This document shows positions 2,610 through 36,022 of a stretch of DNA of 37,515 nucleotides, one piece after another (position 1 is the stretch's first letter; the number at the start of each line of letters is the position of its first letter). Under the pieces are notes generated by a model. It was given only the letters and a program-made list of their open reading frames with translations. It searched no databases and was not told where the DNA came from. The position numbers were made by a program, and so were the translations under genes. Origin of the DNA: a virus; the IMG/VR virus record IMGVR_UViG_3300043661_000156, positions 1 through 37,515 of that record; one strand, 5' to 3'.

Positions 2610-5417
2610 TTAGCCTCCGAAGTCTTCGCCGAACAGCCAGCCAAAGCCGGCAGGCTCCATCGTCACGACCAGCTCCTGCGGCATGAAGCTTTCGAGTGTT
2701 CCTACTTTTGAAAAAACCTGAATGGTGATCGGGTCCGGGTGACCGTCCGCCAAGCGCTGCGCGGAAGTGTAGGTCCACGTTTCCAGCGCGACTCCGAGAT
2801 CCGATCGAATGATCACGGTGTCGGCGGCGATGACGTAGATATCAAACACCTGTCCGGCCTCGCCTGCGATGTCGCCAGCGTCCTGCGCCACGAGCAGACC
2901 GGCCACGGTTTGCGTCAACCGATTGCGCGACGTCCAGGTCAGCGCGATGCTGCCGATGATCGTCGATGGTCGCGTTCCGTACGGAGCGCCGTTGACCTGC
3001 AGGCAGCCCGGCGGATACGGACGCGCGGCGCGCGAGCGCGTGGTGATGGCGTCGTAGCTCGCGCTAGCGATTGGATACTCGCCGAAGGAATTTATCGGGA
3101 GCAGCTTCGCCTGCTCGGAGCCGGCCACCGCGTAGGGAGCTTGCTTCGTCGTTCCGACGCCCTGAGAGATGAACCAGACGGTCGCGCCGGCGGCGTGATT
3201 GGCGGGAACGGTGTCGCAGACGCCGCGCATGATCCCGGTGAACGAGTAGGTCCCGTCGATGTTCGGGATCACGTTCTGCACGCCGATGATTTCCTCATCG
3301 ATGAGCGCGAGAAGCTTTCCGCTTACCACGTCCTCCAGACTGACGCTCGCGAGCGCGTCGAGATCAACCTGGCCTGCGAGAGCGAGCGTGAATCCGGTCG
3401 AGTCGACTGCCGGCGTCGCGGCTGAGTACGCGGCCGAGAGAAGTCCGATGGGACAGAAACCGTTCACCAGATTGCCGAGAAAATCTCCACCGCCCTCGTT
3501 TACCCAGATCTCGTAACTCGTCGAAGTGCCATCGCCGCGCGCGCACATCGCCAGCGCGAAGATCCCGGTCTGGTTGAAGTGGTAGGGCAGCTCGATAAGC
3601 TGCTGCGCGGCCGGAGCGAGCGGAGCGCCCAGCGGATTGATCCAACCGGACGGCGGCGGCGTGGCGAACGCGGCGAACTCGATGCCGAAAATATCCTCGA
3701 CCGCGTCGATGGTGATCTTCCCGTCGAGCAGCTCGCCGTAGGCGATGCGCGTCACGCGGAAAACGATGGCGTCGATTCCGAGCGGCAACCAGGTGAACAC
3801 GAAAACTCCGCCCGGACGGAACTTCCACGCGGTCCGGTTGCAAACGACTTTGAGTTTGCCGAGCGGATAGGTGAGCGTCTTCAGCACGCGCGTGTTGATC
3901 AGCGCAGCCGCGGCCTCCTGCGAGATCCCTCGGAACTCGATGGTCTGCGGACGGACCGTGTTGGTGATGGCGATGTTGGCCGGGTCGTAGCCGGTCGCAA
4001 TGCGGTCGTTGAAATTGTTCAGCCGCGAGCAAAACTTGATGTTCACGAGATTGGTCGTCTCGGTCCACGAGCTGCGCGAAAAATCCGGCGTGGCGACCAC
4101 GTTGGAAACGTCGAGCACCGGAAGCGTTTCCTCGTCGTAGTCGTCCCGCGCGAGCTTGAGCGTCCACAATCCGCTGGAAGGATCCGTGTACAGAACGCCG
4201 TCGATGTGGCGGCAGATCTCGCCAAGGAGCTGGTCGGCGGTCGCCTGCGTGTCGAACTGCATCGAGACCCCGAGACCCTCGCCGGCCAGCACGACGGCGA
4301 CGGCCTGAAAGTTCGCGGCATCGATGGTCGTCGGCAAAATCCCCAGACCGGAATCGATGTCGGTCATCAGGTCGTAAATTCCGAGCGCGGGATTGGCGTC
4401 GCCGTTGATGTTGGCGATGCCGGCACCTTGGCCGAACGGATCCGGGCAGCGCCGCAAGATGAACGCGAGCGGCTTCAGGTAGTTTGAGGTGCCCACGTAG
4501 AGCTGACGGAAAACCGCATAGCACAGCTTGGGATAGGCCGGAGCGGTGAACGCATGCTGCGTCTGTACGACGAACTGATCTCCCGGAGCGAACTGTGTCG
4601 AGCCGGTGTCGATCGTGACGTTGATCTGTGGAGAGGAAAACGCCTGGTCCGCCCAGCACGCGTGCGAGCCGTCGCCGTTGGGCTCGGTCGCGCTGATGGA
4701 TCCCGAGACGCTTCCGTGAACGGAGAACTTCATCTTTTGGTAGGTGGAGTCGGCGGAGTTGCCGTCGATGCTCTCGGCGGTGAACGTCAGCGTTTCGTTT
4801 TTCGATGAGCTCCCGCCGGAGAGCAGCGTCATGGTTCCGTTGCCGACGCCGGCGAAGGTGTAGCCGATGCCGAGCTGGTCCAGCACCACGCGGCCCTGCT
4901 TCGCGGTCAGATAGTCGTTCGGTTGCTGCGTCTGAACGCCGCGGTAGAAGTCGATCTCACCCGAGAGTCCTCCGGCGCCGCCCGGAGTGACGCCGCCGAA
5001 AAGATTGGGAGCATCCACGATGAGCTGCGAATAGTTCTCGCTGCCGGATCCGTTCAAGATCGGCGTGGCCACGTAGGTGACATCTTTTTTGTCCGCCTCG
5101 ATCGAAAGCAGCAAATCGACCGGACCCTTGCAGAGCGCGAACTGAACGCCGAGGTAATACTGGAAGCCCGTGGACTTCGCCATGCCCAGAGAAAAAATCA
5201 GCATCAACAGGCTCGGCTCGATCGGCTTGACCTTCAGGTCGCCCCACCAAACCGTGTTCCCGCCCTGCAGCTTCACCGTCCCGAGCACGTAGGGGATCGC
5301 GCGTCCCTCCTGCGCCGTCGGCACGGAGAAGTCCCCGAGCGCGCTGGGCGCCGGTCCCTGTTGATGGGGAGCGAGCAGCACGCCGACGACGGTAGTGGCG
5401 ACGAATAGGAGAAGCAA
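2610..5417 (-). CDS. tail tip attachment protein (lambda J / GTA hub-like)
   Basis: This 935-residue protein is the large tail-tip protein. Near residues 30-55 it carries the pattern typical of this class, a short hydrophobic N-terminus then AQEGRAIPYVLGTVKLQGG. A region from about residue 690 (LIDEEIIGVQNV, then TFTGIMRGVCDTVPANH-like text) resembles the C-terminal part of gene-transfer-agent hub proteins, where bulky residues precede an MRG motif. It would sit at the distal tail and engage the host surface. The start is uncertain: the frame opens at a TTG without a well-spaced ribosome site, and an in-frame stop lies only six codons upstream, so the N-terminus cannot be much longer. Confidence 0.85.
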   Translation of the reverse strand: MLLLFVATTVVGVLLAPHQQGPAPSALGDFSVPTAQEGRAIPYVLGTVKLQGGNTVWWGDLKVKPIEPSLLMLIFSLGMAKSTGFQYYLGVQFALCKGPVDLLLSIEADKKDVTYVATPILNGSGSENYSQLIVDAPNLFGGVTPGGAGGLSGEIDFYRGVQTQQPNDYLTAKQGRVVLDQLGIGYTFAGVGNGTMTLLSGGSSSKNETLTFTAESIDGNSADSTYQKMKFSVHGSVSGSISATEPNGDGSHACWADQAFSSPQINVTIDTGSTQFAPGDQFVVQTQHAFTAPAYPKLCYAVFRQLYVGTSNYLKPLAFILRRCPDPFGQGAGIANINGDANPALGIYDLMTDIDSGLGILPTTIDAANFQAVAVVLAGEGLGVSMQFDTQATADQLLGEICRHIDGVLYTDPSSGLWTLKLARDDYDEETLPVLDVSNVVATPDFSRSSWTETTNLVNIKFCSRLNNFNDRIATGYDPANIAITNTVRPQTIEFRGISQEAAAALINTRVLKTLTYPLGKLKVVCNRTAWKFRPGGVFVFTWLPLGIDAIVFRVTRIAYGELLDGKITIDAVEDIFGIEFAAFATPPPSGWINPLGAPLAPAAQQLIELPYHFNQTGIFALAMCARGDGTSTSYEIWVNEGGGDFLGNLVNGFCPIGLLSAAYSAATPAVDSTGFTLALAGQVDLDALASVSLEDVVSGKLLALIDEEIIGVQNVIPNIDGTYSFTGIMRGVCDTVPANHAAGATVWFISQGVGTTKQAPYAVAGSEQAKLLPINSFGEYPIASASYDAITTRSRAARPYPPGCLQVNGAPYGTRPSTIIGSIALTWTSRNRLTQTVAGLLVAQDAGDIAGEAGQVFDIYVIAADTVIIRSDLGVALETWTYTSAQRLADGHPDPITIQVFSKVGTLESFMPQELVVTMEPAGFGWLFGEDFGG

Positions 5418-5442
5418 AAGCCAGAAGAAGACTCACCAACCT

Positions 5443-6237
5443 TTAGCCGATACTCGCGCTCCCATCGAACGGATTGATTTCAGGGATGAGATCGAAGCCG
5501 AAAAAATTTGCAATGTTGCTGTACGTCGAGCACGCCGCGAACGTCAGCGCGCAACCGGCCACGCCCGAGACCGGCTGGCCCACGGTCAGCCCCGCGATGG
5601 GAGAGAGCAGCGTCACCGTCGCTCCGACCTGCGCCACAATCATCCGCTTGGCATTGCCCCAGTTCAGGTAGCCGCCCTGCAGCGAATCGGGAATGGAAGC
5701 GAACGCGGGGATCGTGAGCACAGCCCCGGTCGCATCGATCGCAGTGACCGTGCCGGCATAGGTGTGCTTGCTGAGGTCGATGCCGCATCCCGGATCTCCG
5801 AACACGTGGCAGCACGGCGATTGATAGAGCTGCTTCGGGATCTTGTTCTGCAGCAAGTACTGATCGGAATTTGCGGTGAACTCACACTCGTCGGTGAATC
5901 TGGCGGAGTCGACCGTGCCCGTGAACAGCGAGACGGTCTCGCTGTCGCCGTAGTGTGAACCGTAAACCAGCAGCGAAATCGGCGACGCCGGAAGGTAGGG
6001 AATGAAAATTTGTGCCAGCGGGTGATCCTTCGGCACATAAACTTTGATCTGCCCGGACACAACTTCGTTCGACTGGTCCACTTCGCTGCGACCGATGGTC
6101 GTGGGCGTGTAGACGTTGCCGAGGTAGGTGATCGGCTCGTCGGCGTTGGTGAGCGCGAACGAGATCCCGACTCCCTGAAACAGAAAAAGTTCGTACGGCT
6201 CTGAGCCGGCTCCCTGCTCGAGTGCGTCGTAGCTCAT
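5443..6237 (-). CDS. phage BR0599-family tail assembly protein
   Basis: The 264-residue protein matches the phage BR0599 / DUF2163 group, tail-tip components of siphophages and gene transfer agents. The family's Cys-rich core is visible (QSPCCHVFGDPGCGIDLSKH), followed by paired beta segments and a second Cys pair near the C-terminus (AGCALTFAACSTYSN). I chose the ATG at 6237 because it overlaps the preceding stop as ATGA. A longer reading to 6303 adds 22 Arg/Gly-rich residues that look non-coding. It lies directly between the 570-residue tail protein and the tail tip protein, as expected for this module. Confidence 0.88.
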   Translation of the reverse strand: MSYDALEQGAGSEPYELFLFQGVGISFALTNADEPITYLGNVYTPTTIGRSEVDQSNEVVSGQIKVYVPKDHPLAQIFIPYLPASPISLLVYGSHYGDSETVSLFTGTVDSARFTDECEFTANSDQYLLQNKIPKQLYQSPCCHVFGDPGCGIDLSKHTYAGTVTAIDATGAVLTIPAFASIPDSLQGGYLNWGNAKRMIVAQVGATVTLLSPIAGLTVGQPVSGVAGCALTFAACSTYSNIANFFGFDLIPEINPFDGSASIG

Positions 6238-24225: not shown

Positions 24226-24697
24226 TTTGTTTGCCTCCTCGCTTCGAAAGACCGAGTAACGCTTCCTTTAAGGATTTTTCAATCTTGGCCTGAACCATCA
24301 CGCGCGAAGTCTCACCGACCACCTCCGGCGCGACGCGCGGAGCGACGGCCATGACGCGCGCCTTGGTGGTCAAAATCAGATCGGCCATTTCTTTTTCGAC
24401 GTCCTCGATCGTTACGAGCTGGCTGCGTTCCTTGGCGAGCTCGATCTCGCGCATGTCCGCGTCGGCCCGGAGCAGCCGCACGCGCTCTTCTCGCTCGCCG
24501 GCGAAAGCGCCGTCCGGCATCGGCACGGCTTTCTTTTCGAGCGCCGCCTGCAGGTACCGGATGTAAAACAGCATGCACTTCACCGCGTCGTACTGGCCGC
24601 GGCCTTCCTTGGGCAGCCCTTCCTTCACGAGCTGATGGACGCGCGACTCCGTGAGGTTCAGAGCCTGCGCCACGCGGCTGATATCAGTTAGAGGCAT
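24140..24697 (-). CDS. terminase small subunit (Nu1-like)
   Basis: The 185-residue protein has an N-terminal winged HTH (SRVAQALNLTESRVHQLVKEG, residues 7-27), a basic link, a helical central region with RADADMREIELAKERSQLV (about 77-95), and a helix at about 105-150 that could oligomerise. This is the layout of Nu1/DUF1441-type small subunits, which recognise the packaging site and load the large subunit. It overlaps the methyltransferase stop by 14 bases. The C-terminal 28 codons share DNA with the homing endonuclease start. Confidence 0.85.
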   Translation of the reverse strand: MPLTDISRVAQALNLTESRVHQLVKEGLPKEGRGQYDAVKCMLFYIRYLQAALEKKAVPMPDGAFAGEREERVRLLRADADMREIELAKERSQLVTIEDVEKEMADLILTTKARVMAVAPRVAPEVVGETSRVMVQAKIEKSLKEALLGLSKRGGKQNAGEAALPQGTTSGAVEGPPVRRNKPGR

Positions 24698-25994
24698 CGC
24701 GTTTTACTTTTTTCCCCGTGGCCTGCTCCCAGCGGAGAGCGATGACGTCAACGAACTTCGGCTCCAGCTCGCAGAGGTACGCAGTGCGCCCGAGCTTCTC
24801 GCACGAGATGAGCGTCGAGCCGGAGCCGCCGAACGCGTCGAACACCAGGTCTTTTTTCCGTGTGGAATTTTTCAGGAACTTGTCGATGAGCGCGACGGGC
24901 TTCATGGTCGGGTGTTCGTCGGAGCGCTTCGGCTTCGGGATCTTGATCACGGTCGTTTCGAGTTCCTCGATCGCGATTTTCTCGCCGCGGATTTCAAACC
25001 ACTGATCGCCGAGCCGGAGCCGGTAGCGATTCGGCTCGACCTGCGTGAGCGGAGCCTGCAGCATGAACTCGGAGATGGTCGTGGACTTCCGGTCGCCGTA
25101 CCACTTGTGAGATCCCGTCGGCTTCCAGCCGTAGAGGATCGGCTCGTGCTGCCACTGGTAGTCGGAGCGGCCGAGCACCAGCGAGTCCTTGCACCAGATG
25201 AGGCAGCCGGCGAGTTTGAAACCGGCTTCGTTGAACGCACCGCGAAAGTTGAGTCCCTCGGTGTCAGCGTGGCAAACGTAGACGGCGCCGCCGTCCTTCA
25301 GCATGCGGAACATCACGCCGAACGCGCGCCGGAGGAAGTGCCGGAACTTGTCGTCGGCCATGTTGTCGTTTTTTATTTTCCCCGCGCCGCCTTCGTAGTT
25401 CACGTTGTACGGCGGATCGGTGAAGATCACGTCGGCCTTCGCGCCAGCGAAAAGTTTTTCGATGATGAACGGATCTGTGGAGTCGCCGCAGATCACGCGG
25501 TGCTTCCCGAGCGTGATGAGCTCGCCGGTGAACGCCGTGGGTTTCGCCGGCGTCTCCGGGACCGCGTCTTCGTCCACGCCTGCGAGCAGACCGCCCTGCT
25601 CGAGGTTCAGCAGCTCGTTGATTTCGTCGGCGTCGAAGCCGGTCGCCTCGAGATTGAATCCGAGCTTGGACAAATCGCCCAACTCGAGCGCGAGCAGCTC
25701 CTCGTCCCACTCCGCTTCTTCGTGGACTCGGTTGTCGGCGAGACGGTAGGCCTTCACCTGCGCGGCCGAGAGATCGCTCGCGACGTGGACCGGGACCTCC
25801 TTCATGCCGAGCCGGAGCGCAGCGAGCAGTCGCGTGTGGCCGACGACGATCGTCGAATCTTTGTCCACCACGATGGGCTGCTTGAAACCGAACTCCTTGA
25901 TGGACGCTGCAACTTTTGCGACGGCGTCCTCGTTGCGCCGCGGATTTCTCTTGTAGGGGATGACTCTGTCGACGCTCCACATCTGAATTTTCAT
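24684..25994 (-). CDS. ParB-like plus N6/N4 DNA methyltransferase, beta class
   Basis: The 436-residue protein starts with a ParB-like nuclease domain (residues about 1-90, with IVVGHTRLLAALRLGMKEVP holding the box II GHxR element). The methyltransferase part has motif IV DPPY at 193-196 and motif I FGGSGST at 388-394. Motif IV before motif I marks the beta order, with a target recognition region between them (about 280-350). It should methylate adenine or cytosine amino groups in phage DNA, protecting it from restriction or marking packaging. No cognate nuclease is seen nearby. ATG 25994 follows GGAG and is preferred to the longer frame at 26018. Confidence 0.92.
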   Translation of the reverse strand: MKIQMWSVDRVIPYKRNPRRNEDAVAKVAASIKEFGFKQPIVVDKDSTIVVGHTRLLAALRLGMKEVPVHVASDLSAAQVKAYRLADNRVHEEAEWDEELLALELGDLSKLGFNLEATGFDADEINELLNLEQGGLLAGVDEDAVPETPAKPTAFTGELITLGKHRVICGDSTDPFIIEKLFAGAKADVIFTDPPYNVNYEGGAGKIKNDNMADDKFRHFLRRAFGVMFRMLKDGGAVYVCHADTEGLNFRGAFNEAGFKLAGCLIWCKDSLVLGRSDYQWQHEPILYGWKPTGSHKWYGDRKSTTISEFMLQAPLTQVEPNRYRLRLGDQWFEIRGEKIAIEELETTVIKIPKPKRSDEHPTMKPVALIDKFLKNSTRKKDLVFDAFGGSGSTLISCEKLGRTAYLCELEPKFVDVIALRWEQATGKKVKRDASN

Positions 25995-26140
25995 ACCAGC
26001 GCTCTCCGTGCTACCCAAGTCGAAAAACTAAAGTCAAGTCCGTCAAAAAATTTCAGTGGCAGGACACCCCTCGGCCTCGCCGTGACCCTCGGCGGCGGCA
26101 TCCCCCCGGCAGGACCCAAACCAGGGCGAAGAAAAAGCGG
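25995..26140. other. gene-free gap before the methyltransferase
   Basis: This 146-base stretch has no convincing reading frame on either strand. Frames that cross it are short, Cys/Arg-rich shadows. I see no clear hairpin or promoter, only GGCGGCGGC-like low complexity near 26090. Confidence 0.6.
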
Positions 26141-28848: not shown

Positions 28849-29371
28849 CCATGACCTGAGATTGTCCGAGCGAGCTCACATTCATCAGGAGCTGCTCGCC
28901 GATGTACTCCTCAACGTCGAGCGAAGACCAGGCGACCATCACCAGCGCGCCGCGCTGATGCTTTTGCAAAAGAAAATCGATCTGATCTGCGGACGGTTTG
29001 CCGGCAGCTCTCACGATTTTTTTCCGCTGATCGGTCCACGCGGGTGATTTGACCTCGATGTAGACCGCGCGGCCGTATGGCGCGAGCGTGGCCTCGATAT
29101 CCGAAAAGCCTGACGGGATCGCAGATCCTGTCTTTGCGCTTTGAACTCCAGCCATCGAAACACCTGCAGCGGCAGCAGCCGCCATCATCCGGCCGCGCTG
29201 ACGTCGTCCGCCGGCATCGATCGGAACGGCGTCGACGCGGTAGGTCCTGAGCAGCTCGAGGATCTGCGACTGAACCATTCCCTCGGTGAGGTGACTCATC
29301 AGGTACAGATCCGAATAGCGCGCCCGATCGAAGCGACACGGGAACGGCCACGAGATGGGTTGCGTCTTCAA
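28835..29371 (-). CDS. VRR-NUC-like PD-(D/E)XK nuclease
   Basis: The 178-residue protein carries the nuclease core: SQILELLRTYRVDAVP at about 35-50, GFSDIEATL with Asp91, then YIEVKSP with Glu106 and Lys108, and QIDFLLQKHQRGALVMVAWS at about 129-148. This is the order of VRR-NUC type Holliday-junction or replication-repair nucleases. An Ala-rich insert at 63-71 is odd and may be a linker. The TTG start overlaps the J-protein stop as TTGA; ATG 29299 is an alternative. It probably processes branched or linear phage DNA. Confidence 0.85.
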   Translation of the reverse strand: MKTQPISWPFPCRFDRARYSDLYLMSHLTEGMVQSQILELLRTYRVDAVPIDAGGRRQRGRMMAAAAAAGVSMAGVQSAKTGSAIPSGFSDIEATLAPYGRAVYIEVKSPAWTDQRKKIVRAAGKPSADQIDFLLQKHQRGALVMVAWSSLDVEEYIGEQLLMNVSSLGQSQVMDADV

Positions 29372-30018
29372 CGCGAGAGTTCCTCGATCGCTTCAGCTCG
29401 CGCGCGGTTGAGTTTAATCATCCGCTCGTGCGAGCCTTCGATGTCGGGATGGCATTTCTTGGCGAGTGCGCGGAAGGCGTTCTCCACGAGTTCCATGACC
29501 GGATTCATCGTGGGTGGGAAACCCAAAACTTCGCGCCACGGTTTCCCTGCAGCCTGGAGCTGAGCGAATCCCTGAAACGCGCGGTCGAGGATCGCACCGC
29601 CGCCGTGACGCTCGATCGCGCGAAGCGCTTCAAGAGTTGCGGCGACTGCGGAGAGGTTGTCGGCGACGCGGTCGTAGCGGTCGATGGCCATGCATTGCCT
29701 CTTGCCGGCGGGATTCTTCCAGTAGACCGCAACGCCCGGATCCGCAGGCTCGGCTCGATCACTGCGCGGAATTCCGTCGAGCCGGACGGGGATCATCGTC
29801 GAGATGATGATGTCCGAATCAGCGACCTTGAACCTGCGCAGCTCGTTCGTCGTGCGGAGAACTCCCTCCCACACCGAAAGCGATCTTTTCGTCTGCCAGC
29901 TCCCGCCCGATGAATTCGACACGGTCTCCGACTTCCCGAATTGCGCGCGCGTGCGCTTAATTTTCGGCGTTCGGTTGTAGCCCTGCGGCCAGGAAAGCGG
30001 GTAGCGAGTCTCGTTCAT
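29368..30018 (-). CDS. J-domain protein of the replication module
   Basis: The 216-residue protein has a short N-terminal PLSWPQGYNRTPKIKRTR segment, a central alpha/beta region (ISTMIPVRLDGIPRSDR, then GKRQCMAIDRYDRVADNL), and a C-terminal J-domain with the HPD motif at 190-192 (KKCHPD). I have seen the same arrangement in prophage and phage DnaJ-like proteins, where the HPD helix should recruit host DnaK, perhaps for initiator remodelling as lambda P/DnaJ do. ATG 30018 follows GGAGGTCGAA. A longer frame to 30258 is non-coding-like and is rejected. Confidence 0.9.
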   Translation of the reverse strand: MNETRYPLSWPQGYNRTPKIKRTRAQFGKSETVSNSSGGSWQTKRSLSVWEGVLRTTNELRRFKVADSDIIISTMIPVRLDGIPRSDRAEPADPGVAVYWKNPAGKRQCMAIDRYDRVADNLSAVAATLEALRAIERHGGGAILDRAFQGFAQLQAAGKPWREVLGFPPTMNPVMELVENAFRALAKKCHPDIEGSHERMIKLNRARAEAIEELSR

Positions 30019-30314
30019 TTCGACCTCCGGGATCGCAGCAGATATTCCTGCTGCGGTAGCGACGTCTCCATCGCTGCGATTTCGCGCACGTAGAGCCGGA
30101 ACTCCTTCACGTTGCCGGCACCAGTCCGAAAGCGCGAAGCGAGATTCCTCGTTCCATCCTTCGCCAGCTCCTGCAGGTAAGCGATGGCGTCGACGCGCGA
30201 GAGCCGGAGTCCGTAATCCTTGCGCATCGCGCTGATGATTTCCGTGAGCGTCTCCCAACGGTCGTTCATGGTCGCCGCGGTCATGTGGTTTTTCAGATTG
30301 TCGACTGCCCTCAC
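30015..30314 (-). CDS. hypothetical helical protein
   Basis: The 99-residue product is charged and helical (DRWETLTEIISAMRKDYGLR, then VDAIAYLQELAKDG). The GTG start overlaps the previous stop as GTGA and has GAGGAGGG ahead of it. A longer frame to 30434 has no good start. It ends ATGA on the J-domain gene. No family is recognised. Confidence 0.65.
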   Translation of the reverse strand: MRAVDNLKNHMTAATMNDRWETLTEIISAMRKDYGLRLSRVDAIAYLQELAKDGTRNLASRFRTGAGNVKEFRLYVREIAAMETSLPQQEYLLRSRRSK

Positions 30315-30508
30315 GCTACCCTCCTCGCTTTCGCCAGACATTTCGGATTGGTGCAAAGCGTCTGCGTCGAATCGGCCCACGCGCAGGCCTCGTCGTCGAG
30401 CAGTCCGATGAGGCAAGCGTTGTGCTCCGTGCAACCGCAGAACCTGCAGACGCCGCGCGGCCGATTAGCTGTCAACCGTCGCCTCGGCGCTTGATTTTTT
30501 TTCTTCAT
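30311..30508 (-). CDS. zinc-finger-like small protein
   Basis: The 65-residue protein has a Cys set CRFCGC (about 21-26), C32, C42 and CTNPKC (about 52-57). This is the plan of a phage zinc protein with a central CxW motif (EACAWAD) that I know from many phage early regions. It may bind nucleic acid or act as an anti-host factor. It overlaps the next gene as GTGA and follows the 71-residue gene by ATGA. Confidence 0.8.
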   Translation of the reverse strand: MKKKNQAPRRRLTANRPRGVCRFCGCTEHNACLIGLLDDEACAWADSTQTLCTNPKCLAKARRVA

Positions 30509-30720
30509 TTGGGACCTCGGACTTTCCGGGAGAACTCGTCGACATCGGACCGCGTCACTTTCGGACTTTGCTCGACGAACAGGTGCGGAGCGTATTCACC
30601 CGGCAGCCCGTCGAGCGTAACCATTCCGTCGGGCGCGAATCCCGTGATGCGGTAGGTCGGACCCGATGCAAGCTGGTGCGCGAAACGAACGGCGTCCCCA
30701 ATCTTCCAGGTTTTTTTCAT
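30505..30720 (-). CDS. small basic protein with KOW/SH3-like plan
   Basis: The 71-residue protein opens MKKTWKIGDAVRFAHQLASG, then PTYRITGFAPDGMVTLDGL, an alternation of short strands and turns like KOW or SH3 barrels. No exact family is recognised. ATG 30720 is behind AGTAGGAGG. A longer frame to 30807 adds basic residues with no ribosome site. Confidence 0.6.
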   Translation of the reverse strand: MKKTWKIGDAVRFAHQLASGPTYRITGFAPDGMVTLDGLPGEYAPHLFVEQSPKVTRSDVDEFSRKVRGPK

Positions 30721-30728
30721 GGTGCCTC

Positions 30729-30962
30729 CTACTTTGAATGGTTTGGGCACAAGTCCTGTTCGGGTCCGAAAGGCCGTGCGCAAGCGTCGCAGATCGGAGC
30801 ATCGCAAGTGATCGGATCACCGCCCAGAGTCTTACCCACTACAAAGTCGCAGAGCTTTGAACTCCATCGCGGACAGAAACGGCACTTCGGAGTCCGTCCC
30901 TTCGCGTGCTTCACGATCGCGACACCGCCGCCCGGAAGTTTTATCCATGAGCACGGACTCAC
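30729..30962 (-). CDS. zinc-binding small protein (CSWIKLPGGG family)
   Basis: The product (about 77 residues) starts GTG AGT CCG and has CSWIKLPGGGVAIVKHAK, then CRFCPRW at about 27-33, CDFVVGKTLGG, CDAPICDACARPFGP and a final CPNHSK. Two Cys-rich clusters suggest two zinc sites. I recall the CxxI.YPGGG..I pattern from unrelated phages, function unknown. Two adjacent GTG codons (30965, 30962) are possible starts; the second overlaps the short upstream frame's stop as GTGA. Confidence 0.8.
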   Translation of the reverse strand: MSPCSWIKLPGGGVAIVKHAKGRTPKCRFCPRWSSKLCDFVVGKTLGGDPITCDAPICDACARPFGPEQDLCPNHSK

Positions 30963-31070
30963 CACGTCGCTCCTGAGTACTCACGTTTCCTTGCTGCCGG
31001 CAGATGTCGCCAGCAGTACTTCTCCAAACGAAAAGCCGGGCGCCCGCACCGCAGCGCCGCACACCAAAGT
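30959..31070 (-). pseudogene. possible small Cys/His protein without clear start
   Basis: A frame ending at 30959 reads WCAALRCGRPAFRLEKYCW then RHLP, with four Cys and one His like a zinc knuckle. Its stop overlaps the next GTG as GTGA, which suggests it is or was a real gene. I find no ATG, GTG or TTG start above the Cys-rich part; upstream lies a hairpin (31077-31106). It may be a broken gene, or use a rare start such as CTG. Confidence 0.3.
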
Positions 31071-31076
31071 TTTTGC

Positions 31077-31106
31077 GGCGGGATCCCCCCTTCTGAAGAT
31101 CCCGCC
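31077..31106. other. 9-bp hairpin in an intergenic gap
   Basis: GGCGGGATC (31077-31085) pairs with GATCCCGCC (31098-31106) around a 12-base loop. There is no U tract after it on either strand. Together with 31154-31175 and a weaker 6-bp pair (ACCGGA / TCCGGT near 31112-31138) it makes a three-hairpin array. Confidence 0.6.
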
Positions 31107-31153
31107 GTGTAACCGGATTTTTCGGAAGTCGCTCCGGTAGGAGGCTCTAGGCG

Positions 31154-31175
31154 CTCGGCGTTAGGGAACGCCGAG
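31154..31175 (-). terminator. hairpin after the 76-residue gene, likely terminator
   Basis: CTCGGCGTT (31154-31162) pairs with AACGCCGAG (31167-31175), a 9-bp perfect stem with a 4-base loop, about 15 bases after the stop of the 31189 gene. No clean T run follows on the minus strand, so it may be a weak or Rho-assisted stop, or a processing site. Confidence 0.5.
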
Positions 31176-31188
31176 TCCGAAACCCGAA

Positions 31189-31419
31189 TCAAAGTTTTTC
31201 GATGCCGGCAACGCGCTCCGGCCAGTTCCACTGACACGGTCCGTCGCCCTGCGTGAGTCCTTCGTCCATGTGCTGGCCTTTCGGCCCGAACACGAACAGC
31301 CGCACGGTGCCGTCGGCGGCGACGTTTTGAATGATTGCCGGGGATTGTTGCGGCGGGTACTTCCCGTCGCGCGAACCCGGATGGTTGTAGATCACGATCC
31401 GCCCGATGCTTGGCTTCAT
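31189..31419 (-). CDS. small conserved phage protein (GDGPxQWxWP family)
   Basis: The 76-residue protein reads MKPSIGRIVIYNHPGSRDGK, a middle with a strand pair (GTVRLFVFG), and ends EGLTQGDGPCQWNWPERVAG. The GxxxW.WP ending and the opening IGRIV.Y are features of a widespread small phage/prophage family of unknown function. The ATG follows AGGAGGCAGTTC. In the same frame upstream lies only antiframe repeat text, so a longer start is not credible. Confidence 0.85.
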   Translation of the reverse strand: MKPSIGRIVIYNHPGSRDGKYPPQQSPAIIQNVAADGTVRLFVFGPKGQHMDEGLTQGDGPCQWNWPERVAGIEKL

Positions 31420-31430
31420 GAACTGCCTCC

Positions 31431-32204
31431 TTACGATTCGTCGTTGAGAATTTTCTGCCGATCGTTTTCGGACAGCATCTTCCATGCCCGTTGCAGCGCA
31501 CGTTGATATCGGCGGCGCGCAGCACTCATGCGGGCTCGAACTTCCGGATCGGCCCACGCCTTCCGGCGCGCAGCACTCATGCGGGCTCGAACTTCCGGAT
31601 CGGCCCACGCCTTCCGGCGCGCAGCACTCATGCGGGCTCGAACTTCCGGATCGGCCAACGCCTTCCGGCTCGCAGCACTCATGCGGGCTCGAACTTCCGG
31701 ATCGGCCAACGCCTTCCGGCTCGCAGCACTCATGCGGGCTCGAACTTCCGGATCGGCCCACGCCTTCCGGCTCGCAGCACTCATGCGGGCTCGAACTTCC
31801 GGATCGGCCCACGCCTTCCGGCGCGCAGCACTCATGCGGGCTCGAACTTCCGGATCGGCCCACGCCTTCCGGCTCGCAGCACTCATGCGGGCTCGAACTT
31901 CCGGATCGGCCAACGCCTTCCGGCGCGCAGCACTCATGCGGGCTCGAACTTCCGGATCGGCCCACGCCTTCCGGCGCGCAGCACTCATGCGGGCTCGAAC
32001 TTCCGATTTTTGGTGTGCCTCGATATCGGCCCGAAATTTCGCCTCATCGAAGTTGGGCTTGCGAATAAATGCTGGCTTCGAGCGGATTCCGCGCCCACTT
32101 AGGCAATCGCCGCACATCGGCGTGCCGGCAACGGTCTTCCGAGACGGAACACGACTACGGTTTCGCTCCCAGCAGGGTCGGCAGATGAGAATTGCCTGCG
32201 CCAT
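31431..32204 (-). CDS. zinc-knuckle protein with ten 17-residue tandem repeats (NUMOD3-like)
   Basis: The 257-residue protein begins with a Cys pair C8/C11 and a second C31/C34, a zinc-knuckle plan, then a short link. Residues 67-236 are ten copies of a 17-residue unit, EVRARMSAA[RS]RKA[WL]AD-P. The last copy degenerates to RRYQRA. Copies differ only at the R/S and W/L positions, each a single base change. The unit resembles NUMOD3-type helices that accompany homing endonucleases and bind DNA. No nuclease motif is visible, so a DNA-binding or anti-host role is inference. The ATG forms a TAATG overlap with the previous stop. Confidence 0.85.
   Translation of the reverse strand: MAQAILICRPCWERNRSRVPSRKTVAGTPMCGDCLSGRGIRSKPAFIRKPNFDEAKFRADIEAHQKSEVRARMSAARRKAWADPEVRARMSAARRKALADPEVRARMSAASRKAWADPEVRARMSAARRKAWADPEVRARMSAASRKAWADPEVRARMSAASRKALADPEVRARMSAASRKALADPEVRARMSAARRKAWADPEVRARMSAARRKAWADPEVRARMSAARRRYQRALQRAWKMLSENDRQKILNDES
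31497..32006. repeat. 51-bp tandem repeat array, ten units
   Basis: A 51-bp unit is repeated ten times, near-identical but for two alternative bases, and is in phase with the host gene because 51 is a multiple of three. All three plus-strand frames over the array are open only because the unit lacks stops; they are not genes. The high identity suggests recent or ongoing expansion by unequal exchange or slippage. Confidence 0.9.
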
Positions 32205-32593
32205 TACCGCTCACCCTGCGCAGCGTCCTGAACGTCGTCGTGATTCGAGGCGTTGCTCTTGCACGCGACTTTTATCGAGCGGGGATCGTCGCGCCGACCC
32301 GCGGTCGTCACGACCGCCTGCAGGCCGCACGCTGAACAGTTCACGACAAAATATCCGCAACGTCTCGCCGGGTAGGGAAGCGCGGTCTGGCACGTGCGGA
32401 CCTGCCCAGTCGTGAGGTCCAGGTCAACCCCGTTCGGAAAGCGCGGATCTGGTTCACAGGTTGGCTCAAAGCCTCTGTCGACCCAGGAGACCAACAGGTT
32501 CTCTTTTTTCATGTGCGCCTCTGCTTCTTTCACTCGGTCATTCCGTCTCCGCAGGGCGGGCTCAGACCCCTCGCCGCCTCTGTTGCTGTTCAT
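32204..32593 (-). CDS. conserved phage protein with Cys-rich core
   Basis: The 129-residue protein has KEAEAHMKKENLLVSWVDRG (about 21-40), then CEPDPRFPNGVDLDLTTGQV, CQTALPYPARRCGYFVV, CSACGLQAVVTTAGR, and DDPRSIKVAC. The DPRFPNGVDLDLT...CGYF..C..CGL pattern belongs to a common phage family of unknown function. ATG 32593 follows GAAGGAGGCGG. A longer frame to 32878 is an antiframe reading of the previous gene. Function unknown. Confidence 0.85.
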   Translation of the reverse strand: MNSNRGGEGSEPALRRRNDRVKEAEAHMKKENLLVSWVDRGFEPTCEPDPRFPNGVDLDLTTGQVRTCQTALPYPARRCGYFVVNCSACGLQAVVTTAGRRDDPRSIKVACKSNASNHDDVQDAAQGER

Positions 32594-32604
32594 TTCCGCC
32601 TCCT

Positions 32605-32895
32605 TCAAAAATTGTCGTGGCCTTTCGCCGGATCCGGCGAGCCGGCGCCGCGGCGATAGCGCTTCAGCTCCTGGAACATGGCGAATCCGCCGAACCTGGC
32701 AGCGAGCAGAGAGAGCTCGTGATCCCAGCCGGGAAAAGTGAGCGAGGTCAGAGCGAGCGCCATCAGAATCATTTGCTTCTCCGACGGATTGCCCGACACA
32801 ATCCACGGACCGTCCTGGCCGGCGACTTCGAGCAACCCGCGCGGGACCTGAAGCGCGGTCGTAATTTCCTCTCCCCAATTTGTTCGCTCGCTCAT
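32605..32895 (-). CDS. hypothetical helical protein
   Basis: The 96-residue product starts MSERTNWGEEITTALQVPRG and has a hydrophobic middle (QMILMALALTSLTFPGWDHE), then FQELKRYRRGAGS. It is mostly helical with one Trp-rich turn. ATG 32895 is behind GGAGGCGG, better than GTG/TTG starts further up. No family is recognised. Confidence 0.7.
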   Translation of the reverse strand: MSERTNWGEEITTALQVPRGLLEVAGQDGPWIVSGNPSEKQMILMALALTSLTFPGWDHELSLLAARFGGFAMFQELKRYRRGAGSPDPAKGHDNF

Positions 32896-32905
32896 CACCG
32901 CCTCC

Positions 32906-33499
32906 TCAGCCAACCGGCCAGTCCTCGGGCACGAGCATCGCGATCGCGCAGAACGGCGTCCACCGATGCGGCTCTGGGCAGGCGTCGCACGTCACCCATC
33001 TCCCCTCAAGATTCGGGCGCGGTTTCATCGGCGCGGAAGCACCGATAGCCGCCTTCAGCCATTCGTTGATCTTCACGTGCTGCGGTTTGCTCAAATCGCC
33101 GCCTCGGTTGAACACTCGGCTCAGTTCGCAGAGATCGTCGTAGGTGACGCTAAAATCCCGTCCGTTTCGCGCCGGCGGCTCGGGGACGGAGCGGTCAGGA
33201 TTCTCACCTGTACTTTTCGTCCCCGGATGTGCTGGTGAAGCAGGTCCTCGCGCATCTGCGCCGACTATCGCCTGAGCGGGATGCTGCCCCTCAGACGAAT
33301 TCCGTGGTCCGCATTCACCATCGTGTCCGTAGGATTTCTGACAAGTGAAATCGTTTAGTCCGTAGGACCTGTAGCAGTGGCGCGGAATCGGCCCCTCCTT
33401 CGCACCAGGAGCCTCCGTGGGAGCCGGAGGTTTCCCTTTCGTTCCGCGGAGAGACGGGTCGAATTCGTAGCCGCCTCGCCCGGTTTCTGCCTTGTCCAT
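32906..33499 (-). CDS. hypothetical protein with Cys-rich C-terminus
   Basis: The 197-residue protein starts MDKAETGRGGYEFDPSLRG with GGAGG ahead. Most of it is Pro/Gly-rich and low complexity (about 35-100), then a helical part (FSVTYDDLCELSRVFNRGG), and a Cys-rich end CDACPEPHRWTPFC. The frame stays open upstream to TTG 33598 with a Cys-bearing stretch (CKSCALSG, then YESCGFWHLE), which may be the true N-terminus. An in-frame stop lies just beyond, so the start is one of these two. Function unknown. Confidence 0.6.
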   Translation of the reverse strand: MDKAETGRGGYEFDPSLRGTKGKPPAPTEAPGAKEGPIPRHCYRSYGLNDFTCQKSYGHDGECGPRNSSEGQHPAQAIVGADARGPASPAHPGTKSTGENPDRSVPEPPARNGRDFSVTYDDLCELSRVFNRGGDLSKPQHVKINEWLKAAIGASAPMKPRPNLEGRWVTCDACPEPHRWTPFCAIAMLVPEDWPVG

Positions 33500-33659
33500 T
33501 TCAGCCTCCAGGTGCCAAAATCCACAGGACTCGTAGTCCTGCGTGTGCGAACTGTGCGGCTCCAGCCCGCTCAGAGCGCACGATTTACACAGCGTCAAAA
33601 CCCCCGTTCCCGTCAGGTGCCACTAGCAGTGCCACGATTTTTTTGCCATACTGACGCCC

Positions 33660-33893
33660 ATGCCGGGACCAAAAACCAGCTTCAGCGCCACCGATTGCCA
33701 GACGCTTCTCGACCTGATGGCCGAGATTATTGACGGCATCGACCTTCCCGGTCCGCTCGAGTCCTACGCCGAGAACGATGAGCAACGGCGCGTCCTCGTG
33801 CGACTGCGCGACGGCGCGCACATACCTCCAGAAGAAAGGGAAGCCTACGCGGAGAACGAGGCGTACCGCTTTCCGAAGCCGAAGCCCGAGTAG
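33660..33893 (+). CDS. lone plus-strand gene, small acidic protein
   Basis: The 77-residue product begins MPGPKTSFSATDCQTLLDLM and has a helical middle (AEIIDGIDLPGPLESYAEND) and an acidic C-terminus (PPEEREAYAENEAYRFPKPK). The ATG lies about 8 bases after CATACT, a -10-like box, and has no ribosome site, so a leaderless message is possible. It ends 1 base from the oppositely oriented 33895 gene and is divergent from the 32906 gene. The acidic makeup looks like genuine coding rather than an antiframe shadow. Confidence 0.6.
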   Translation: MPGPKTSFSATDCQTLLDLMAEIIDGIDLPGPLESYAENDEQRRVLVRLRDGAHIPPEEREAYAENEAYRFPKPKPE

Positions 33894-33894
33894 T

Positions 33895-34041
33895 TCAGCC
33901 ACGGCTCAACCTCCAGAGCGTCAGAAAACTCACGAGCACAAAACAGGTGCCTGCCGTCTCCATCCACTGAGCGACCGTCGCGAGGAAACCCACCAGCGCG
34001 AGACACGCGACGATGAAATCGAAAGTGCGCGCGTCGATCAC
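33895..34041 (-). CDS. 48-residue two-span membrane protein
   Basis: This short gene encodes MIDARTFDFIVACLALVGFL, a second hydrophobic run (ETAGTCFVLVSFLTLW) and an Arg-Gly end. Its GTG start overlaps the DUF6527-like stop as GTGA. It ends just beside the oppositely oriented 33660 gene. Function unknown. Confidence 0.7.
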   Translation of the reverse strand: MIDARTFDFIVACLALVGFLATVAQWMETAGTCFVLVSFLTLWRLSRG

Positions 34042-34331
34042 GGCTTCACTTTTCCTTTGCGGATGGTCTCGCCTTCCTTCACGAAGCCGTGCCAGCATCC
34101 CCAGTCGAGCGACGGGTAGATCGTCATGCCGGCGAGATCGTAGGTGCTGCACTGAAACACGAACACGCCGGTCTCGTTGTCGGTGAACGAGCTCATGCCC
34201 GGTTGCCCGAGCCGGACCCGATGTCGATGCCCGGATCCGCACGGGCAGTCGATCACGAGGATCCGTACACCGTTCGGCTCCCTGCCGCCTTCGGGAGTCG
34301 TCCACACCGGATTCAGATCGGTCAGCTTCAC
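34038..34331 (-). CDS. DUF6527-like protein
   Basis: The 97-residue protein has MKLTDLNPVWTTPEGGREPN, then ILVIDCPCGSGHRHRVRLG, and a final TIYPSLDWGCWHGFVKEGE. The CPCGSGHRHR element and the SLDWGCWH.F box match a small phage family that I know as DUF6527-like, with a possible zinc or metal site. The GTG start overlaps the zinc-ribbon stop as GTGA. Function unknown. Confidence 0.8.
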   Translation of the reverse strand: MKLTDLNPVWTTPEGGREPNGVRILVIDCPCGSGHRHRVRLGQPGMSSFTDNETGVFVFQCSTYDLAGMTIYPSLDWGCWHGFVKEGETIRKGKVKP

Positions 34332-34444
34332 AGCCCTCGCTTCGCTCCCTTGCATTCGCCACAGAGCCGATGCCCGCAACGCGGACAAATAAATTCCAGC
34401 TTGAACATCCGCCGCGAACATTTGCAGCACACCGTCGACTTCAT
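34328..34444 (-). CDS. 38-residue zinc-ribbon peptide
   Basis: The product reads MKSTVCCKCSRRMFKLEFIC then PRCGHRLCGECKGAKRGL, with two CxxC pairs and a third, forming a compact zinc ribbon. ATG 34444 has AGGAAAG at a good distance. A longer frame to 34531 has no ribosome site. It overlaps the DUF6527-like gene as GTGA. It may bind nucleic acid. Confidence 0.7.
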   Translation of the reverse strand: MKSTVCCKCSRRMFKLEFICPRCGHRLCGECKGAKRGL

Positions 34445-34554
34445 AGCCGAGCTTTCCTGCAGGACCGGCAGATCCGGTGCCCGCATTTTGAACAAGTGAA
34501 CCTCGTCGTGCGCTTCGAGCAACGGCAACAAATCCTCACGCTCATCGGAAATTG

Positions 34555-34595
34555 GCGAGCAGCTCGAGAATCCGCAGTTCCCCCGAGCTGCTCGC
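34555..34595. repeat. perfect 12-bp inverted repeat next to the integrase stop
   Basis: GCGAGCAGCTCG (34555-34566) pairs with CGAGCTGCTCGC (34584-34595) around a 17-base loop. It lies 9 bases after the integrase stop. It could be a terminator of the integrase message, or part of the integrase binding site (attP arms), since attP often lies beside int. Confidence 0.6.
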
Positions 34596-34603
34596 GGTCC
34601 GAG

Positions 34604-35698
34604 CTACTTACCGCCGTCCTTCCCGCCCTTGTCCTTGCCGCCTTTGTCGTCTTTTTTTCCGTCCATTGGTCGTGCCTCCTTGTCGTTCATCTTCTCGGCC
34701 GCCGCCTGCCGGTGATCACGCGCGAGGTGCGCGTACTTCATCGTCATGACGATTGATTTGTGGCCCAGAAGTTCCTGCACCGTTCGGATGTCGACACCGC
34801 GCATCACCAGGCGCGAAGCGAACGTGTGCCTCAGATCGTGCCAATGAAAGTCGTCGACCTTGGCCTTCTTCACCGCGGCCTCGAGCCAGCGGCGCCAGTC
34901 GCGCGTGGCGTTCTCGGTCGCATCGGGAGAAACGAACACAGCATCCTCGGGCTGCAGCGACTTGAGCGTGCGCAGCGCCTTCAGCGCCGAGCGATTCGCC
35001 ACGATGTGACGCCGGCCCGTTTTCCCTTTGACCGTCAGAATTCCCCGCTCGAGGTCGCAATCTTTCCATTTAAGTAGAAACTGCTCGCCGCGCCGCATCC
35101 CCGTGTGAAGCGCGAGATCGAACTCCGACTCGTGCGCCAGATGATCAATGGCAACCCTGATCGCCGCCTCCTCGGTCGGCTTCAGCCATCGGATCCGGGA
35201 GTCGTTCTCGCGATACCTCTTCACACGGGAAACCGGGTTGACCGCGATGCGGCCGGAGCGCAGAGCGAACGCGTAGATGCTGCTGATGAGCGAGCGGTAG
35301 CGGTTGACCGTGGATCCCGTCAGATTGCGCGACGTGATCAAACGGGCGAGCGCTTCCTCCACGCGGTCGGGCGTGAGCCGGTCTGCCGGCACGTGGCCGA
35401 TGAGCGGCAGGAGCTGCGCGAGCCGCATCGTGTCGGTTTTGTAGGACGAAAGAGCGAGCCGCAATTTCTTCTGCGTCATCGCGGCCTGCGCGAGTTCGCG
35501 GAAGGTGATGCGCGCTCCCTTGGTTGGCGGAATGTAGCGCCCCTCGCGGATCTCCGAGCGCCGCTGCGACACTTTGTCCAGAGCCAGTGCTCGCCGGCCG
35601 ATTTTCTCGCGGTGACGCATTCCTTCCGTGTCACAGTACGAGATCCACCAGACGCCGCTCTTTTTCGGACGCTCGAAGATGCCGGGAATTTTGGGCAT
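34604..35698 (-). CDS. int: tyrosine integrase
   Basis: The 364-residue protein is a site-specific recombinase. A short N-terminal arm-binding-like stretch (about 1-60) is followed by a SAM-like core-binding domain (TFRELAQAAMTQKK to ARLITSRN) and a catalytic domain with Arg202 (TGMRRGE), Lys near 224-226, His287-x-x-Arg290 (HDLRH), His313 (LLGHKS) and nucleophile Tyr322 (MKYAHL). All five classical residues are present, so it should be active. The C-terminal tail after 345 is Lys/Gly/Asp-rich and unusual. It lies inside the early minus-strand set rather than at its end. The ATG has no strong ribosome site. Confidence 0.95.
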   Translation of the reverse strand: MPKIPGIFERPKKSGVWWISYCDTEGMRHREKIGRRALALDKVSQRRSEIREGRYIPPTKGARITFRELAQAAMTQKKLRLALSSYKTDTMRLAQLLPLIGHVPADRLTPDRVEEALARLITSRNLTGSTVNRYRSLISSIYAFALRSGRIAVNPVSRVKRYRENDSRIRWLKPTEEAAIRVAIDHLAHESEFDLALHTGMRRGEQFLLKWKDCDLERGILTVKGKTGRRHIVANRSALKALRTLKSLQPEDAVFVSPDATENATRDWRRWLEAAVKKAKVDDFHWHDLRHTFASRLVMRGVDIRTVQELLGHKSIVMTMKYAHLARDHRQAAAEKMNDKEARPMDGKKDDKGGKDKGGKDGGK

Positions 35699-35704
35699 TT
35701 GTTT

Positions 35705-35989
35705 TTAGCTGATGATCGGTGAAGCCGTGATTCGACTGGCCAGCCACGCCTTGATCGCAGCGACCGCCGCAAGACGCCAGCGACCGCCGTCGCCCTCGAA
35801 CAGAGCGAGATTGACCACGCTGTTCTGCACGCGCGCGCGAAAGATGAACGTCGAAACGATCTGGTCGATTTCCGCGGGGATCGGCGGCGAGAGCAGTTTG
35901 ACCGTCTTGTCCACGTAGACCAGCTTGTCGAGCTGGACCTGGTTTGGAATGGCGAGCGTCAAAATTTTTGAAACGAACTCACTGAGCAT
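35705..35989 (-). CDS. hypothetical alpha/beta protein
   Basis: The 94-residue product reads MLSEFVSKILTLAIPNQVQL, then KLVYVDKTVKLLSPP, TFIFRARVQNSVVNLALFEG, and a helical end. It looks like a small globular protein with no known motif. ATG 35989 follows AGGAGGCACAG. It is immediately upstream of the integrase, with its stop seven bases before the integrase start. Confidence 0.65.
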   Translation of the reverse strand: MLSEFVSKILTLAIPNQVQLDKLVYVDKTVKLLSPPIPAEIDQIVSTFIFRARVQNSVVNLALFEGDGGRWRLAAVAAIKAWLASRITASPIIS

Positions 35990-36022
35990 CTGTGCCTCCT
36001 GTTTGAATTTTTGCTGCATGGC

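Follow-up and report, generated by a model that had tools for sequence, protein, structure and literature searches.

The virus record IMGVR_UViG_3300043661_000156 encodes a protein, P0001, that carries an array of near-identical 17-residue units. The unit is related to NUMOD3, is predicted to form one helix per copy and is carried without a nuclease. Within arrays of such units from mostly unrelated phages, nonsynonymous change is concentrated in two codons, termed X1 and X2. As far as sequence can tell, this pattern points to variation maintained at two specificity residues. The best reading, held at slightly better than even confidence, is that P0001 is a sequence-specific DNA-binding protein of the early region of a temperate phage, in which the residue pairs would set the target.

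The window, the whole 37,515-nucleotide stretch analysed, contains integrase, terminase, portal, major head, tape-measure and tail genes and is therefore a temperate tailed phage or prophage. P0001 is encoded in a dense minus-strand cluster of small genes and lies 2.4 kb from the integrase, which is on the same strand. The features are as follows.

31189..31422, minus strand: downstream small gene, PHROG 2293 (unknown function), beginning <10 bp past the stop codon of the array gene.
31431..32204, minus strand: array protein gene P0001 (NUMOD3-like), from the ORF, the translation, Pfam NUMOD3 and the third-position excess across arrays.
31434..31526, minus strand: C-terminal tail, residues 227-257, a predicted helix, from the translation and an AlphaFold helix at 220-256.
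31497..32006, minus strand: repeat array, residues 67-236, from Tandem Repeats Finder, unit alignment and AlphaFold.
31527-31985, minus strand: nine exact 51-bp units within the P0001 array, from unit comparison.
31554..31964, minus strand: X2 codons, W (TGG) or L (TTG), residues 81, 98, ... 217; first codon 31962-31964, then every 51 bp.
31566..31976, minus strand: X1 codons, R (CGC) or S (AGC), residues 77, 94, ... 213; first codon 31974-31976, then every 51 bp.
32103..32183, minus strand: CxxC-x19-CxxC knuckle, residues 8-34, a putative zinc site, from the translation; AlphaFold confidence ~50.
32204..32611, minus strand: upstream small ORF, its stop overlapping the array gene start (TAATG); no family match.
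34604..35698, minus strand: tyrosine integrase (Pfam Phage_integrase 6.5e-32; PHROG 1).

A scan of positions 30000-36000 found no sigma-70 promoters, no known RNA families were found in the window and none of the PADLOC defence models matched. Elsewhere on the minus strand of the window lie a ParB-like domain fused to a DNA methyltransferase (24684-26018; PHROG 498, 620) and an unknown phage protein with a weak DnaJ-like C-terminus (29368-30258; PHROG 9210).

P0001 is the 257-aa translation of the minus-strand ORF at 31431-32204. Tandem Repeats Finder reports a 51-bp repeat at 31513-32005 with 9.7 copies, 98% matches and a score of 937, so the repeat is not a chance occurrence; the length is that given in a first-pass annotation of the DNA. 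Residues 74-226 form nine exact 17-aa units, preceded by a partial unit, SEVRARM (67-73), and followed by a degenerate SAARRRYQRA. The earlier count of ten copies at residues 67-236 holds if the partial first and degenerate last units are counted in that register. At the DNA level the nine units differ only in codon 4 (CGC/AGC) and codon 8 (TGG/TTG), in agreement with the earlier statement that variation is confined to an R/S and a W/L position. X1 is thus unit position 4 and X2 unit position 8, and their order along the protein is RW RL SW RW SW SL SL RW RW, exactly the string first read. The CxxC-CxxC motif that had been described at the N-terminus is present in the translation (C8, C11, C31, C34), its zinc site being putative.

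Protein and pattern scans of viral contigs identified ~18 arrays of the P0001-type unit, with the consensus S-x-A-X1-K/R-x-A-X2-A-D-P-E-V-R-x-R-M. No nuclease domain was seen in them, several being cut by contig ends. The proposal that the repeat is used alone, without a nuclease, finds support in the window and in ~17 related arrays, some of which run off the ends of their contigs. The ends of the proteins vary. Cys-rich N-termini are found in the window protein, L005, L037, L123 and L134, an HTH module in L006 and L007, a GcrA domain fused to the array in L009 (Pfam 4e-6), and there are several C-terminal types. Replication-type neighbours include ParB-like and O-like genes (L008), a primase (L006), DnaB (L007) and an O-like gene (L009), and the array gene of L134 lies beside Mu Gam. 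Read by eye, L010 (1005-1712) has NUMOD3-like units and a C-terminus resembling DnaA domain IV, adjoining a GcrA-like ORF; this apparent fusion suggests that the units are used in replication proteins. In L035, two paralogous arrays (2672-3076 and 4998-5639, ~5 and 12 units) flank an integrase-like ORF.

When the flanks were aligned as nucleotides with the array genes masked, only L004/L022, L008/L020, L008/L022 and L120/L127 aligned. A scan of genome contigs added L020, L022 and the loosely similar array L019, and 397 genomes of the Methylocystis order held only the one array already known. Most other genome contig matches were chance occurrences of KALADPEV in apparent periplasmic binding proteins. 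Repeats on Xanthomonas plasmids (L013, L014, L015; 33-40% identity) were set aside as a different repeat, an 18-residue KVIDPETGE unit; these tandem repeats also vary at few positions.

The codon test used 16 arrays of at least three units, mostly from phages with unrelated flanks, giving ~85 units from metagenome assemblies of which several are cut inside the array. The X1 and X2 codons are variable within these arrays in 30 of 32 cases, compared with 27 of 240 for the other codons (Fisher 7e-22). The searches themselves fixed some unit positions and required W/L/R at X2 of one unit or more in every array; both DNA pattern scans left X1 free. X1 is variable in 15/16 arrays against 9/96 for the six further positions that the searches constrained least (p 1e-11). 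Distinct variant codons within arrays number 37 nonsynonymous at X, 20 nonsynonymous elsewhere and 10 synonymous. Relative to opportunity and synonymous change, the nonsynonymous excess is ~10 at X (bootstrap 6.4-17) and ~0.8 (0.76) elsewhere. One array, L009, has three identical RW units and no X variation. Residues outside the main pairs also occur, H, I, T or M at X1 and F at X2. The association between X1 and X2 is weak, R with W and S with L (p 0.013, the units not being independent).

Between arrays, a mean of 5.5 of the 15 other codons differ synonymously, and differences by codon position number 972 at the third against 329 at the first and 345 at the second. These differences mark the frame as the coding one and the arrays as old, each homogenised separately. 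The codons that spell the alternatives also change from array to array (S as AGC, TCC or TCA; R as CGC, AGG or AGA; L as TTG, CTG or CTT), so R/S and W/L have either been kept through codon turnover or have re-evolved.

The first-pass annotation attributed the pattern to recent expansion or recombination. The units are indeed homogenised, and to that extent the account stands; the variation is not incidental, as it recurs at these two codons in almost all of the unrelated arrays. In its strong form, this account would make R/S and W/L chance SNPs shuffled by unequal crossing-over in a recently expanded repeat, without functional meaning. The single-base differences of the window (CGC/AGC, TGG/TTG) on otherwise identical units speak for it. 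It is already disfavoured, and is considered quite improbable, by the recurrence of variation at the same codons in 15/16 arrays from mostly unrelated phages, by codon pairs that differ between arrays (e.g. AGA/TCA, TGG/CTG) and by the nonsynonymous excess of ~10 at X. Targeted mutagenesis, by a diversity-generating retroelement or otherwise, could also limit variation to fixed codons. It is hardly credible as the source of the X1/X2 residues, since no reverse transcriptase (PF00078) was found in the window or ten related records (11 in total; controls positive), the changes are not adenine-specific and the units are otherwise identical. Selection on what X1 and X2 recognise is the simplest explanation of the pattern, because concerted evolution spares exactly these two residues per unit in unrelated phages.

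The order and number of units also change between relatives. L006 and L007 have related ends and five units each, in the orders RW RL SL RW SL and RW SL RW RW SW, respectively. L120 and L127, ~90-94% identical around the gene, have the order SW SL RL in common. L008 has five units and L022 one, with flanks ~92-96% alike; the more distant L020 also has one. The suggestion that copy number may vary between strains is supported, for relatives, by these metagenome assemblies, in which collapse is possible because L022 ends just past the array and many contigs break inside arrays.

The likeness to NUMOD3 was part of the original description, and an HMM comparison gave 25.8 bits for Pfam NUMOD3 (PF07460) against P0001, above the gathering cut-off of 20.4, as a sum over weak single units. 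NUMOD3 also exceeded its cut-off in five of ten other proteins tested (L122, L124, L128, L134 and L008). Tandem repetition inflates Pfam scores, and NPM1-C also exceeds its own cut-off. As a control for repeat inflation, nine arrays with permuted unit positions were scanned against the families. Two of the nine exceeded the cut-off of unrelated families, one of them also lying exactly at the cut-off of a second family, and 0/9 matched NUMOD3. The Pfam score was rejected as sole proof, as repetition alone yields family matches. The relationship is better supported by two other lines. In a repeat-to-repeat comparison by hhalign, P0001-type units match units from GIY-YIG/NUMOD-type phage proteins with a probability of 97.7% (E 1.5e-12). 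Mixed arrays such as L092 and L049 are intermediates between the two, with canonical NUMOD3 units interspersed among WADPEFR units in a single 17-residue register. At the level of sequence comparison, the array unit is thereby supported as NUMOD3-related, and DNA is likely to be the ligand of the array because of this relation.

Nuclease-bearing cousins were found in a broader scan. In L042-L047 the P0001-type 17-aa unit occurs 13-15 times behind a Pfam GIY-YIG domain, and cognates of the unit are also present on other nuclease-like proteins. L042-L047 and L052 are close freshwater phage GIY-YIG proteins, 96% identical and with 13 or more units; their arrays differ mainly in the first few units, which suggests exchange within them. 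A 559-aa minus-strand ORF of L136 (IMGVR_UViG_3300013233_000856) has a very long WADPEFR / FSSDEFRAK array and then, as read by eye, a nuclease resembling Vsr-like or PD-(D/E)XK enzymes and a further domain. No nuclease family in Pfam or NCBIfam matches P0001, and its PHROG matches named homing endonuclease are confined to the repeat. The cousins raise the idea that P0001 is a decayed homing endonuclease, its nuclease lost and the targeting array a remnant. This is thought improbable: the frames are intact with third-position bias across arrays, different N- and C-terminal modules stand where the nuclease would be, and X1/X2 diversity has been maintained.

AlphaFold predicts one 16-residue helix per unit of P0001, P-E-V-R-A-R-M-S-A-A-X1-R-K-A-X2-A, broken at Asp, with X1 and X2 one helical turn apart. 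The array has a pLDDT of ~95 and the knuckle is low (~50); the pTM of 0.43 makes the overall arrangement uncertain. The model of the nuclease-bearing L042 likewise has one helix per unit, at lower confidence. Foldseek and VIA returned no match of the P0001 model in the PDB, which is not evidence that the fold is new, and BFVD gave one modest match, a Bacillus phage SP-15 protein (25% identity). A weak PDB sequence match to nitrile hydratase (E 0.023) was judged to be chance.

One point against the preferred reading is that X1 and X2 may be turned towards solvent or adjacent helices. A rival reading is a protein-protein or structural array, a superhelix of stacked helices in which the two residues would tune packing or partner binding. 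The confident chain of short helices, the hydrophobic W/L and the lack of a matching solved DNA-binding fold all fit such an array. It is nevertheless judged rather unlikely in view of the relation to NUMOD3 units and the arrays on GIY-YIG nucleases, the very basic units, the relatives fused to GcrA-like, DnaA-like and HTH modules, and the array genes located beside replication genes.

Under the preferred reading, that of a sequence-specific DNA-binding protein, the nine to ten units, whose helices begin behind the Asp of D-P-E and extend to X2-A, would form a modular rod following the DNA. The fit of rod to DNA would be similar to that of the I-TevI DNA-binding domain helix in the minor groove, and from the I-TevI literature we infer minor-groove binding by the units (PMC1564403, PMC2988022). 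Conserved Arg and Lys residues may hold the DNA backbone, and X1 and X2, which share one helical face at a spacing of four residues, would adjust the preference of each unit and so read the sequence. A pair may read one base, several bases or the local shape of the groove. Unequal recombination or gene conversion would keep the units identical, with selection keeping the X1/X2 string diverse. The protein probably works as a repressor or as an operator- or origin-binding protein, because the end modules joined to the array vary from phage to phage.

A stricter version is a code, in which each 17-aa helix reads a fixed number of base pairs and its X1/X2 pair, with RW, RL, SW and SL as the four main states, specifies which they are. 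This is a tentative proposal, and on balance doubtful. Arrays of different length and order could then address different phage or host sites. If true, this repeat-based code would be very small and independent of that of TALEs. Should the pair set specificity, a single purified array and a handful of residue swaps would allow a direct measurement of the code. The answer would further hint at the way in which NUMOD arrays are retargeted, and a set of unannotated early phage proteins would gain a function. Across unrelated phages, a test made on sequence only points to selection for variation at two residues of this 17-aa, one-helix unit. The open-access papers searched yielded no relevant publication on tandem NUMOD3 arrays or a 17-residue variable pair, and modular DNA reading of this kind appears not yet to have been described.

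Compared with homing endonucleases, P0001 is without a catalytic domain (GIY-YIG, HNH, PD-(D/E)XK ...) by Pfam, NCBIfam and PHROG. The GIY-YIG WADPE-type arrays (L042-L047) have the unit in common with P0001, and position 4 is variable in both. They differ in the presence of the nuclease and in the spread of variation across positions 3, 4, 7, 13, 14, 16 and 17; position 4 is among the most variable and position 8 is almost always W. As for GcrA and other phage HTH regulators, the L009 array carries a GcrA-type domain and the early-region location is similar, although this domain is absent from the window protein.

The only solved NUMOD3 structure found is that of I-TevI (PDB 1i3j, 1t2t). A helix of its DNA-binding domain lies in the minor groove (PMC1564403), and the domain by itself is able to repress transcription (PMC2988022). 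I-TevI and P0001 have in common the 17-residue register and the helix S-x-A-x-K-x-x-x-x-D/S-P/E-E-x-R/K-x-K/R-M/I. I-TevI contains a single helix of this type, with a zinc finger on one side and an HTH on the other, whereas P0001 has nine to ten near-identical units, a variable W/L and R/S pair and no nuclease. The I-TevI helix is described as flanked by elongated segments (PMC2988022), unlike a chain of helices.

Natural DNA readers built from repeats with a simple variable pair are rare, and the one well-known case, the TALEs, has become a major genome-engineering tool. The TALE repeat is a longer, two-helix unit of 33-35 aa. P0001 has a 17-aa unit with one predicted helix, lacks the TALE fold in the AlphaFold model and in Foldseek searches of the PDB, and has no sequence match to TALE; its variable residues are spaced i/i+4 and are not adjacent. 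The likeness is one of working principle only: near-identical repeats differ at two residues, so that specificity would follow from the order of the repeats (PMC4066763). Outside these two positions the unit hardly varies, which is also true of TALEs but not of Bats (PMC4066763). Likewise, two positions carry most of the within-array variation (30/32 against 27/240 codons), again a similarity in how the repeats would work. The array therefore resembles the TALEs in logic and is not a member of the TALE family.
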